This document shows positions 551 through 57,375 of a stretch of DNA of 62,300 nt, piece after piece. The stretch lies in the NCBI GenBank assembly GCA_023248635.1, contig JAHFED010000035.1, positions 1 to 62,300 on the forward strand, written 5' to 3'. Both the position numbers and the translations under genes were made by a program. How positions within the stretch are numbered: position 1 is the first letter of the stretch; the number at the start of each line of letters is the position of its first letter. The notes under the pieces are model-generated. The model was given only the letters and a program-made list of their open reading frames with translations, did no database searches and was not told the DNA's origin. This stretch comes from Myxococcales bacterium (lineage in GTDB: Bacteria > Myxococcota > UBA727 > VGSZ01).

Positions 551-840
551 TTCAAGCGCTGAGGCGCCTGAAGTCTTGAACATCAAGACTTCAAGACGCG
601 CCAGCGTCTTGAACATCAAGACTTCAAGACGCGCCAGCGTCTTGAACATCAAGACTTCAAGACGCGCCAGCGTCTTGAACATCAAGACTTCAAGACGCGC
701 CAGCGTCTTGAACATCAAGACTTCGAGTCGCGCCGACGTCTTGATCCATCAGAACTTCAAGACGCGCCAGCGTCTTGAACATCCAAACTTCAAGACGCGC
801 CAGCGTCTTGAACATCAAGACTTCTCGAAGCATCGCGCCA
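551..840. repeat. Tandem array of 33-bp palindromic units
   Basis: The unit is a 24-bp palindrome with 10-bp arms TTCAAGACGC and GCGTCTTGAA around GCCA, followed by the 9-bp spacer CATCAAGAC. Good copies begin at 590, 623, 656, 689, 756 and 789. Degenerate copies begin near 551 and 722, and a truncated one near 822. The period is 33 bp, with one 34-bp step. Both strands stay open in some frames because 33 is a multiple of three, which creates spurious reading frames of 11-residue repeats. Single copies occur at 31439-31471 (inside metH), 57352-57375 (reverse orientation) and, degenerate, at 1407-1430 and 42511-42533. Confidence 0.92.
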
Positions 841-1406: not shown

Positions 1407-1436
1407 ATCAAAACGCGCGAGCGTCTTGAACGTCAA
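1407..1436 (-). promoter_or_regulatory. Candidate promoter overlapping a degenerate palindrome copy
   Basis: Read on the minus strand, TTGACG (1436-1431) is followed after 18 nt by TTTGAT (1412-1407), a plausible sigma70-type pair about 30 bp upstream of the ATG at 1378. The spacer and -10 coincide with a degenerate copy of the 33-bp family palindrome (arms TTCAAGACGC and GCGTTTTGA, 1407-1430). The promoter call is by eye and weak; the palindrome match is clearer. Confidence 0.35.
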
Positions 1437-8109: not shown

Positions 8110-8405
8110 CTGTCGGCCTTCGCGCGGAAGCACGCGCTTCGCGCGGGAGCGAAGCGCAGAGAACGCCTTCGGCGCAGAACGCCTTCGGCGCAGAACGCCT
8201 TCGGCGCGAACGCCTTCGGCGCAGAACGCCTCCGGCGGGGCCAAAGGGTCCAGGGCAACCCGCTTTGGAATCCCTGCCCTTTGGCGATCGCGTCCCTCCG
8301 GCAGTTGCCCCGAAGGCTGTCATGGTTCGGGCCGCCTCGTGGCAAGTGCTCGAGGGAACGACGGCTTCGATGCCCCATCGCTTTGCGTTTGGGGAACAGG
8401 ACGCT
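8110..8405. repeat. Dispersed ~200-bp repeat with GCG-rich tandem flank, copy 1
   Basis: This intergenic stretch begins with short tandem blocks (AGAACGCCTTCGGCGC repeated several times at about 8158-8230). It continues into about 180 bp that match the reverse complement of 42245-42450, for example GAACGCCTCCGGCGGGGCC, GCCGCCTCGTGGCAAGTGCT and GCGTTTGGGGA. Identity is roughly 75-80% by eye, with one copy carrying about 25 extra bases. The element separates the divergent PilT-like and VWA genes. It has no clear gene. Confidence 0.8.
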
Positions 8406-29110: not shown

Positions 29111-32100
29111 ATGATCACCAAGCCCCGCCTGACAGCATCTGATCTGCGCGACCTCTTGGCCACGCGCATCGTGGTCTTCGACGGCGCCATGGGCACGCAG
29201 CTGCAGAACCGCAAGCTGGTCGCCGACGACTTCGGCGGCGAAGCCCTGGCCGGCTGCAACGAGCACCTGGTGCTCACCCGTCCCGACGTCATCGCCGACG
29301 TGCACCGCGCCTATTTCAAGGCCGGCGCCGACTTCGTCGAGACCGACTCCTTTGGCAGCACGCCCCTGGTGCTCGATGAATACGGCCTGGGGGCAAAGGC
29401 CCTCGAGCTCAACGAAGCCGCCGCCCGCATCGCCCGCGCCGTCTCGTTGGAATTCACCGACAAGCCCCGCTTCGTCGCCGGCAGCATGGGTCCGACGACC
29501 CGCGCTCTTTCGGTGACGGGGGGCCTCAGCTTCGACGCGCTGGTGCAGCACTACGCGGTCCAGGCCGAGGGCTTGCTTCGCGGTGGCGCCGACGTCTTGT
29601 TGCTCGAAACCAGCCTCGACACCATGAACGTAAAAGCAGGGCTCATCGGCATCGAGCAGGCCGAACAGAAACTGGGTCTTGTCATCCCTGTGATGATCTC
29701 TTGTACCATCGAGAGCACCGGCACCATGCTCGCCGGTCAAGGCGCCGAGAGCTTCCACGTCTCCGTCGAGCACGCCAGCCGACGCAAAGGCGGGCTCATG
29801 ACCGTGGGCATCAACTGCGCGACGGGCCCCGATCCCATGGCCGACCACATCCGCGCGCTCGCCGAGCTGTCGCCCTTTGGCATCTCCTGTATGCCCAATG
29901 CCGGGCTGCCAGATGAAGACGGCAAATACGGCGAAACACCCGAATCACTCGCACGCAAATTGGGGCGCTTCTGCGACAATCATTTCCTCAACGTCGTCGG
30001 CGGCTGCTGCGGCACCACCCCGGCGCACATCGAGGCCATCACCAGCATGGCCAACGCCCACAAACCGCGTGCCCCCAAAGAGCGGCTGCGGCCCATGGTG
30101 TCAGGCGTCGACTTCTTGGACCTCGAAGACGTCACCCCCATCATCGTCGGCGAACGCACCAACGTCATCGGCAGCCGGGCCTTCAAGCGCCTGGTGGTCG
30201 AGGGTAAATGGGAAGAAGCAGCCGAGATCGGTCGCAAGCAGGTGAGAAACGGCGCCCACATCGTCGACGTCTGCCTGGCCAATCCCGATCGCGACGAGAA
30301 GACCGACATCATCGCCTTCCTCGAGCAGCTCACCAAGAAGGTGAAGGCTCCCTTGATGATCGACTCCACCGACGCCGAGGTGCTCGAAGAGGCCCTCAAG
30401 CGCTGTCAGGGCAAGGCGGTGGTGAACTCCATCAATCTCGAGGATGGGCGCGAGCGCTTCGACGACGTCGTCCCCCTCTTGCACCGCTACGGCGCCGCCG
30501 TCGTCGTCGGCTGCATCGACGAAGATCCGGTGCAGGGCATGGCCGTGACGCGCGCGCGCAAGCTCGCGGTGGCCGAGCGCAGCCACGCCCTGCTCACCGG
30601 TGAATACGGCGTCTCCGAAGACGACATCATCTTTGATCCATTGGTTTTTCCCTGCGGGACCGGCGATCAACAATATATCGGCTCTGCCGCAGAAACCATT
30701 GAAGGCGTGAGAATGATCAAGCAGCGCTTTCCGCGCTGTCGCACCATCTTGGGCATCTCAAACGTGAGCTTCGGCCTGCCCGAGGCCGGACGTGAAGCAC
30801 TCAACACGGTTTTTCTGCACAAGAATTTCGAGGCCGGCCTCGACATGGCCATCGTCAACGCCGAGAAGCTCGAGCGCATCACCCACATCGACGCCACAAC
30901 CATTGGCGTGTGTGAGCGCCTGTTGCTCGCCAATGCCGGAGCCTACGACGCAGCCCTGATCGCCTTCACCGAGCACTTCCGCGGGGTCGATGTCAAAAAG
31001 AGCGCGGGGCGCGATCTCTCTCTCCCCGTCGACGAACGTCTGCAGAAGAACGTCATCGAGGGCAGCAAAGAGGGGCTGGTCGACGACCTCGAAGAGGTGC
31101 GCAAGACGACGCTGCCGCTGGACATCATCAACGGCCCCCTCATGAAGGGCATGAGCGAGGTCGGCCGCCTCTTCGGCAACAACCAGCTCATCGTCGCCGA
31201 AGTGCTGCAGTCCGCCGAGGTCATGAAGGCCGCGGTGTCCCATCTCGAAAAATTCATGAGCAAAACCGAGGGTGCGGCCAAAGCCAAGATGCTCTTGGCC
31301 ACCGTCAAAGGGGACGTTCACGACATCGGTAAAAATCTCGTCGACATCATCTTGTCCAACAATGGATTCGAGGTCGTCAACCTTGGCATCAAGGTCGCCC
31401 CCGCCGCCCTCATCGCCGCCGTGAAGCAACACGCGCCAGACTTCAAGACGCGCCAGCGTCTTGAACATCAACTCTGTATCGGGCTCTCTGGCCTCTTGGT
31501 GAAGAGCGCGCAGGAGATGGTGGCCACTGCCGAAGAGCTCAAGGCCGCCGACATCGATCTGCCCATCTTCGTCGGGGGCGCCGCCCTTACCGAGCGCTTC
31601 ACCTATGGCCGCATCAAGAAGGCCTATGAGGGAGAAGGCCGGGCCGCCGTCGTTCTCTACGCCCGCGATGCCATGACCGGCCTCGACCTCGCCAACCGGC
31701 TCTTCGACGACAGCAAGCGCCCTGAGCTGATGCTCCATCTCGAGAAAAAGCGCGCTGATGCCACTGCTGTGGTGGTGCCGTCGACGTCGAATCCTCCCCT
31801 GCCCGGCGCTCCCACCGAGCTGGTGATGGGTTGGACCCACGAGATCCACCAGCCCCCCGACACCCGACTGCACGTGCTCGACGACGTCCCCGTCGAAACG
31901 CTGTGGCCCTACATCAACCCCATGATGCTCTACGCCCGCCACCTCGGGCTCAAGGGCCGCGTCGACGATCTCGTGGCCAAGGGCGACAAGAAAGCCATCG
32001 AGCTCAAGCGCCTGGTGAAGGGCGTCGAAGACGAGGTGCTCGCCAAGAACCAATTGCGCGCCCGCTGCTTGTGGCGCTTCTTTCGCGCTGCGCGTCCTGA

Positions 32101-32659
32101 CGGCGAAGACGCCATCGCTTTCTTCGACGGCGACGTCGAGGCTGCCCGCATCGCTTTTCCGCGCCAGGCCGCCGGCGAGCGACGCTGCATCGCCGATCTC
32201 GTGCCCGCACTCTCGTCGGGCAAGCGCGATCACGTCGCCCTCTTTGTGACCTCGTGCCAGGGACGCACGGCGCCGATGCGCGCTCTCGCCGACCAACTGA
32301 AGGAAGAGGGCTCCTACGTGAAGATGCACGCGTTGCAGGCCCTCGCCATCGAGACCGCTGAGGCCCTCGCCGAGTGGGTGCACGAGAGCCTGCGCAAGAG
32401 CTGGGGCATCGGTGATGCGGCGTCGACGACGAAGCAGGATTTGTTTCAAGCCCACTACCGAGGTCGCCGCTACTCCTTTGGCTATCCCGCCTGCCCCCGC
32501 CTCGAAGATCAGGCGACGCTGTGGCAGCTGCTCGGGCCGCACAAACACATCGGCGTCGAGCTGACCGAGGGATTCATGATGGAGCCCGAAGCCAGCGTTT
32601 CGGCGCTCGTGTTCCAACACCCCCAGGCCGCGTACTTCTCCGTCGGCGGCGAAGGCTGA
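29111..32659 (+). CDS. metH: Cobalamin-dependent methionine synthase with an inserted 11-residue repeat
   Basis: A 1182-residue four-module enzyme that transfers methyl from methyl-tetrahydrofolate to homocysteine. The homocysteine domain starts at DGAMGTQLQ and holds the zinc-ligand Cys pair GGCCGTTPAH. The pterin domain (VGERTNVIGSRAFKRLV) is followed by the cobalamin domain with the lower-ligand motif DVHDIGKNLV. The C-terminal activation domain ends YFSVGGEG. Family members have one residue between PD and IGLSGL; here twelve are present (FKTRQRLEHQLC), a net gain of 11 residues or 33 nt, and the DNA is one copy of the palindromic repeat. The frame is intact, so function is probably retained. 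No cobalamin riboswitch could fit upstream. Confidence 0.95.
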   Translation: MITKPRLTASDLRDLLATRIVVFDGAMGTQLQNRKLVADDFGGEALAGCNEHLVLTRPDVIADVHRAYFKAGADFVETDSFGSTPLVLDEYGLGAKALELNEAAARIARAVSLEFTDKPRFVAGSMGPTTRALSVTGGLSFDALVQHYAVQAEGLLRGGADVLLLETSLDTMNVKAGLIGIEQAEQKLGLVIPVMISCTIESTGTMLAGQGAESFHVSVEHASRRKGGLMTVGINCATGPDPMADHIRALAELSPFGISCMPNAGLPDEDGKYGETPESLARKLGRFCDNHFLNVVGGCCGTTPAHIEAITSMANAHKPRAPKERLRPMVSGVDFLDLEDVTPIIVGERTNVIGSRAFKRLVVEGKWEEAAEIGRKQVRNGAHIVDVCLANPDRDEKTDIIAFLEQLTKKVKAPLMIDSTDAEVLEEALKRCQGKAVVNSINLEDGRERFDDVVPLLHRYGAAVVVGCIDEDPVQGMAVTRARKLAVAERSHALLTGEYGVSEDDIIFDPLVFPCGTGDQQYIGSAAETIEGVRMIKQRFPRCRTILGISNVSFGLPEAGREALNTVFLHKNFEAGLDMAIVNAEKLERITHIDATTIGVCERLLLANAGAYDAALIAFTEHFRGVDVKKSAGRDLSLPVDERLQKNVIEGSKEGLVDDLEEVRKTTLPLDIINGPLMKGMSEVGRLFGNNQLIVAEVLQSAEVMKAAVSHLEKFMSKTEGAAKAKMLLATVKGDVHDIGKNLVDIILSNNGFEVVNLGIKVAPAALIAAVKQHAPDFKTRQRLEHQLCIGLSGLLVKSAQEMVATAEELKAADIDLPIFVGGAALTERFTYGRIKKAYEGEGRAAVVLYARDAMTGLDLANRLFDDSKRPELMLHLEKKRADATAVVVPSTSNPPLPGAPTELVMGWTHEIHQPPDTRLHVLDDVPVETLWPYINPMMLYARHLGLKGRVDDLVAKGDKKAIELKRLVKGVEDEVLAKNQLRARCLWRFFRAARPDGEDAIAFFDGDVEAARIAFPRQAAGERRCIADLVPALSSGKRDHVALFVTSCQGRTAPMRALADQLKEEGSYVKMHALQALAIETAEALAEWVHESLRKSWGIGDAASTTKQDLFQAHYRGRRYSFGYPACPRLEDQATLWQLLGPHKHIGVELTEGFMMEPEASVSALVFQHPQAAYFSVGGEG
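31439..31471. repeat. Single 33-bp palindromic unit inside metH
   Basis: The 24-bp palindrome at 31442-31465 is identical to the array consensus (arms TTCAAGACGC and GCGTCTTGAA, loop GCCA), and the flanks GAC and CATCAA are also those of the array unit. It encodes DFKTRQRLEHQ in the metH frame, just before the conserved IGLSGL strand of the cobalamin-binding Rossmann fold. Confidence 0.93.
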
Positions 32660-57351: not shown

Positions 57352-57375
57352 TTCAAGACGCTGGCGCGTCTTGAA
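57352..57375. repeat. Single palindromic unit upstream of the LRR-like lipoprotein
   Basis: The 24-bp palindrome is present in reverse orientation relative to the array (arms TTCAAGACGC and GCGTCTTGAA around TGGC). It ends 57 bp before the ATG at 57433, so it lies in the 5' untranslated or promoter region. The rest of 57157-57430 holds no supported gene. Confidence 0.85.

Follow-up and report, generated by a model that had tools for sequence, protein, structure and literature searches.

In-frame insertion of a very short, probably mobile palindromic repeat in the cobalamin-binding domain of methionine synthase in a Myxococcales bacterium

The stretch of DNA analysed here (hereafter, the window) spans 62,300 nucleotides of a contig of a Myxococcales bacterium and carries a complete metH gene (29111–32659, forward strand), which encodes a cobalamin-dependent methionine synthase of 1182 amino acids. 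The open reading frame scores above the curated cut-off of TIGR02082, all domains are present, and a Pfam scan recovered the five Pfam domains in the expected order, including the B12-binding domain PF02310 (residues 726–847; 31286–31651, forward strand). Within this domain, 12 residues (FKTRQRLEHQLC) separate PD from IGLSGL, the latter being preceded by the motif HAPDFKTRQRLEHQLCIGLSGL, vs. a single residue in 24 out of 24 homologues. These were drawn from 24 genomes of the phylum and compared at the codon level, and the extra residues (779–789 in our protein) are present in none of them (0/24). The preliminary description of this DNA had reported one residue in the family against twelve here, and had equated the excess of 11 residues (33 nt) with exactly one repeat unit; both observations are borne out, the second by the codon alignment. 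No cobalamin-independent MetE was found in this genome, and a separate homocysteine methyltransferase-like protein is encoded on another contig (C54).

Across the insert, the DNA reads GAC TTC AAG ACG CGC CAG CGT CTT GAA CAT CAA CTC TGT ATC GGG, which includes a perfect 24-nt palindrome, TTCAAGACGC-GCCA-GCGTCTTGAA (31442–31465, forward strand), belonging to a repeat that we call family A. This palindrome is identical to six units of a head-to-tail array found by tandem repeat finder and pattern search (573–824, forward strand; 7.6 copies of a 33-bp unit, two of them degenerate), while shuffling the window yielded no match at all (expected number of zero). The pattern search also retrieved two intergenic copies: a degenerate one upstream of a minus-strand gene (1407–1430, forward strand) and a perfect single one with a tail of the 34-bp type (CCAGCAGAAC then TTCA), upstream of the gene at 57469–59727 (57352–57375, reverse strand). 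Other repeats occur in the window. Directly before the array, positions 393–546 hold a 76-bp repeat that is present twice and whose ends are inverted (GATCCCCGA/TCGGGGATC-like), which represents another family; positions 8118–8360 and 42289–42499 hold related clusters of short palindromes in opposite orientation (arms 83–97% complementary), i.e., yet another dispersed family; and a group II intron D1–D4 domain (Rfam RF02001) lies at the contig end (92–266, reverse strand).

In the codon alignment with the 24 homologues, the 33-nt insert is best placed at 31445–31477 (forward strand) relative to the empty sites of the two congeners, or equivalently at 31442–31474 if the left TTC is counted to the element. 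It had first been located at 31439–31471, of which the 33-nt size stands and the placement does not: GAC (31439–31441) and the TTC after it probably belong to metH itself and not to the insert, because the congeners have GAC TTC ATC (G001) and GGC TTC ATC (G002) at this point. The match to the array, which had been said to include the flanking bases, does extend from A31438 to A31471 (AGACTTCAAG...GAACATCAA), and stops short of the last six nucleotides of the insert (31472–31477, forward strand), for which the array comparison gives CTCTGT against the consensus GACTTC. Four of these six bases thus differ beside a perfect hairpin, a number of right-end mismatches equalled in only 2 of 29 terminal units with a perfect hairpin. 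A complex mutation may account for this divergence, as may a local adaptation of the residues that lead into the strand.

The corresponding metH sites of the congeners read CCG GAC TTC ATC GGC (G001) and CCC GGC TTC ATC GGC (G002), both with TTCA at the junction. The insertion is therefore of exactly 33 nt, at a site carrying TTCA, and would most simply date from after the split from both congeners. Since the 11 residues are absent from every homologue, their inheritance from a common ancestor is ruled out, and the claim of an inserted unit survives the comparison with congeners and more distant relatives alike. A second empty site is provided by a protein-kinase gene (contig C63), in which two family-A units lie in frame after NPYF (FKPRQRLEQED LKPRERSEAPA), the G001 orthologue reading CCC TAT TTC AGT, where TTCA likewise marks the junction. 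With TTCA found at 0.25% of coding positions, chance is an unlikely explanation for its presence at the two empty sites. The empty sites of metH and of the kinase gene indicate that insertion is probably directed to TTCA; this tetranucleotide flanks the element on both sides and is single at the empty sites of the two genes, and the additional one could be a target-site duplication as in MITEs, or equally the right end of the element itself. One might fear that a repeat unit was mis-stitched into metH from short reads, given an assembly in 135 contigs and so abundant a repeat. Yet such an artefact is very improbable, as the flanking sequences are the two parts of a single conserved gene, in frame with each other, the sequence closing the insert on its right is unique and does not occur in the array, the junction falls on the TTCA of the congeners, and the same pattern recurs in other genes.

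The genome (6.53 Mb, 96.7% complete) contains 435 sites matching the palindrome with at most two mismatches, vs. 0 in the three other genomes of the family, and 363 sites with at most one mismatch, vs. 0 in 194 other genomes of the phylum. Among 84,980 other species, matches amount to seven, all in Bradyrhizobium macuxiense. The dispersed repeat of this species has the same 10-bp stem, with other flanks and no tail, an apparent coincidence; kinship was rejected, the stem alone matching, inside a larger unrelated repeat. A phage or plasmid source was likewise rejected, the palindrome pattern having no match in viral contigs and the array none in plasmids. Because the repeat is scattered across the genome of this species and lacking in its relatives, we regard it as being, or having been, mobile on sequence grounds, in agreement with the preliminary description. 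Locus-level counts rest on 2.08 Mb read directly (about one third of the genome), with gene calls from a self-trained model. There, 185 family-A copies, 90 of them with a perfect hairpin, occupy 89 loci: 81 intergenic, five in predicted genes and three at gene edges, even though coding DNA makes up ~84% of the sequence. Copies lie near gene starts and stops without preference (43 vs. 39), and a terminator or regulatory role was rejected on this basis.

The borders of the element were determined from an alignment of 80 family-A loci. Its general structure is a TTCA...TGAA hairpin (24 nt) and a tail of 9 or 10 nt, followed by TTCA. The left border is sharp, with only a weak C conserved at –1 beyond TTCA, whereas on the right, the 9-nt tail (CATCAAGAC, CATCCAAAC) or the 10-nt tail (CCATCAGAAC) leads to TTCA and then to random sequence. 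This right end is decayed in about half of the loci, TTCA being present where the tail is intact. In arrays, which are nearly all head-to-tail, 62 steps have a period of 33 and 19 a period of 34. The ends of the consensus, TTCA-AGACGC...CATCAAGAC-TTCA, are direct and not inverted, and no terminal inverted repeats were found between the TTCA repeats of family A. Since the stem is as variable as the loop (8.15 vs. 8.0 changes per position) and paired stem changes are at chance level (8 observed vs. 7.4 expected), selection on the hairpin is not visible, and hairpin covariation was rejected.

Further in-frame insertions were found in other genes. Confident family-A insertions concern metH and genes on contigs C28, C60 and C63, all in the same strand and frame and yielding FKTRQRLEH-like peptides; the C60 gene is without homologues, hence of uncertain status. 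Copies in a coiled-coil protein of contig C22 (4–5 mismatches) are probably compositional and were left out of the counts. Three of the six reading frames of the unit are open, and the frame shared by the genic copies (about 0.04 by chance) is suggestive of, and no proof of, selection on the peptide. Because 33-bp and 34-bp versions both exist, the 33-bp length of the genic units does not on its own provide statistical support for frame selection.

A hairpin scan uncovered a second repeat of 33 bp, family B, with the structure TTCATCGCC-GCCA-GGCGATGAA, then CCTGTAGACAA and TTCA, with the same TTCA ends as family A. It has 240 sites here, one in G001, and isolated chance-like matches elsewhere. 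Family B is often fused to a 30-bp module C (TTCACCGACA...TGTCGGTGAA), which gives a 63-bp composite. One such B+C composite (EFTDSASRVGELSTGSSPGGDEF) lies in frame in an EPSP synthase-like gene (contig C11, 3079–4446, forward strand), where solved EPSP synthases have no counterpart, and another at the C-terminus of a ThiF-domain protein (C36), also in frame, while a protein of contig C78 has a family-B copy outside its SLT domain. In an MshEN-domain protein (C28, 9891–13136, reverse strand), the low-complexity linker contains 21-residue B+C repeats in tandem as well as a single family-A unit, every one of them in frame; matches to this repeat stretch occur at about 90 further places in the genome.

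Regarding MetH itself, the 33-bp insert preserves the reading frame and introduces no in-frame stop. The B12-binding domain shows dN/dS values of 0.19–0.28 vs. the congeners, with 5 private substitutions out of 118, compared to 3/116 and 4/117 in the congeners. The enzyme is still under purifying selection, and its constraint is normal despite the insert. The repeat can enter an essential-type gene without breaking the frame, as first proposed. When solved MetH chains are aligned, an 11-residue gap falls where the insert sits, a position that we take to be the loop leading from the second helix into the third strand of the Rossmann-like fold, at the strand end away from the cofactor. The insert would be tolerated because its residues loop out, a reading based on this alignment, alignment-free structure prediction being too poor (pLDDT of 43). 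That the insert was kept as useful, its 11 residues or an mRNA hairpin tuning the activity or the expression of MetH, is unlikely. The four right-end changes clustered in an otherwise perfect copy do resemble local adaptation, and genic copies all give the same hydrophilic peptide frame, but the element also occurs in unrelated genes, is mostly intergenic with no preference for starts or stops, and change in MetH is not accelerated around the insert. Still less credible, to the point of being negligible, is that ribosomes skip the 33 nt as in byp elements, the peptide never being made: a hairpin of suitable size does sit in a conserved gene, but skipping is unnecessary for an open, in-frame insert that is a multiple of 3, and metH has no landing codon matching the take-off codon TTC (TGT instead). 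To our knowledge, byp bypass cases are mitochondrial.

Altogether, the metH insert is very probably a copy of a very short non-autonomous mobile palindrome, multiplied in this species only and inserting at TTCA. IS200/IS605-type elements insert as single strands, guided by a hairpin, at a tetranucleotide. The TTCA direct repeats without inverted ends of family A fit such a hairpin-guided single-strand insertion by a putative enzyme, or template switching at TTCA microhomology, and a trans-acting enzyme or template switching would thus be the mobilising mechanism. Under the former, the element would be mobilised as a single-stranded hairpin and would insert at TTCA, the fresh TTCA at each of its ends offering a new target, at which repeated insertion, or slippage, would build head-to-tail arrays. 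In metH, it would have entered GAC-TTCA-TCGG, a sequence still present in G001, MetH gaining 11 hydrophilic residues just before the core strand of the B12-binding domain and presumably still working. As for the enzyme, no intact Y1/RAYT transposase was found in this genome (96.7% complete), and mobilisation by a RAYT was rejected for lack of an intact gene. In the single Y1-like match (C9, 359453–360406), SEVR replaces the HUH motif and a W stands where Tyr is expected. This protein carries an apparent DnaA C-terminal region, is also present in the relatives G001 and G003, both without the repeat, and looks domesticated.

Insertion may also have required no transposase, a replication fork or repair event switching template at TTCA microhomology into an array, copying one unit and switching back. 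We give this possibility appreciable, if less than even, credence. A few bases of homology suffice, the insert is exactly one unit long, TTCA stands at both ends and at the empty sites, tandem arrays are common and an intact Y1 transposase was not found. However, two-unit or part-unit copies should then be frequent, while the hundreds of dispersed copies in one species, their sharp borders and the existence of at least one further TTCA-ended family suggest a dedicated process.

Among known systems, the element comes closest in behaviour to the Rickettsia palindromic elements (RPEs), the CGTC-type REPs and the GC clusters of yeast mitochondria. According to the account in PMC2229807 (with Ogata et al. 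2000 cited there), RPEs are palindromic repeats of one lineage, found in frame in conserved genes, and a guanylate kinase that carries an RPE is both translated and active. The likeness to RPEs put forward in the preliminary description holds for this behaviour, i.e., dispersal in one lineage and in-frame presence in conserved genes (here metH and the C63 kinase, with empty sites), and not for membership: in the same account, RPEs are Rickettsia sequences of 105–146 bp with terminal inverted repeats, whereas our unit has 33/34 bp, one asymmetric hairpin with a tail and TTCA at both ends, and belongs to another phylum. REPs tagged GTAG or CGTC, including RPE-4 and RPE-6, are hairpins of 20–40 bp with >100 copies and several families per genome, occasionally genic, CGTC REPs also occurring without a dedicated transposase (PMC3733652). 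Our element shares with them a palindrome of this size, a high copy number (435) and a mainly intergenic location (81/89 loci). It differs by its hairpin foot (TTCA and not GTAG/CGTC, CGTC being found in family A only inside the stem and the GTAG of the family-B tail not being fully conserved), by head-to-tail arrays instead of head-to-head dimers in opposite orientation (PMC3733652), and by the lack of a functional RAYT in the recovered genome. Yeast GC clusters are palindromic mobile units of ~42 nt with tiny direct repeats (AG or ACT), composite units and no known enzyme (PMC4478555); the likeness lies in the shortness of the palindromes, the tiny direct repeats and the merging into composites, but those are organellar with other direct repeats, while ours occur in a bacterium, form tandem arrays and include in-frame copies in genes. 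In contrast to MITEs, family A has no terminal inverted repeats. The element is thus set apart from RPEs and MITEs by size and inverted repeats, and from REPs by tag, dimer arrangement and RAYT. Short dispersed repeats of Nostoc (~24 nt), reportedly described by Elhai et al. in 2008 as mobile with empty sites in relatives, are also very small dispersed mobile sequences, of different sequence and phylum. Tentatively, families A and B (with the shorter module C) might together constitute a single, hitherto undescribed class of ultra-short mobile hairpins of bacteria, with TTCA ends (and, in A and B, a GCCA loop) and a common putative machinery acting at TTCA without a RAYT, donating in-frame peptides to core enzymes.

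Rickettsia and Wolbachia are the best-known examples of palindromic repeats spreading in frame through protein genes. The present locus provides a clear example from a different phylum: the unit is far smaller, both congeners keep the empty site, and the insertion falls within a conserved domain of a core enzyme. This locus affords a rare, clear look at how a core protein is reshaped by mobile DNA of very small size, as well as a natural with/without pair for testing the tolerance of MetH. Moreover, in a genome with at least two TTCA-ended families and no intact Y1/RAYT gene, the TTCA junctions may offer a route to how transposase-less REP-like hairpins move.
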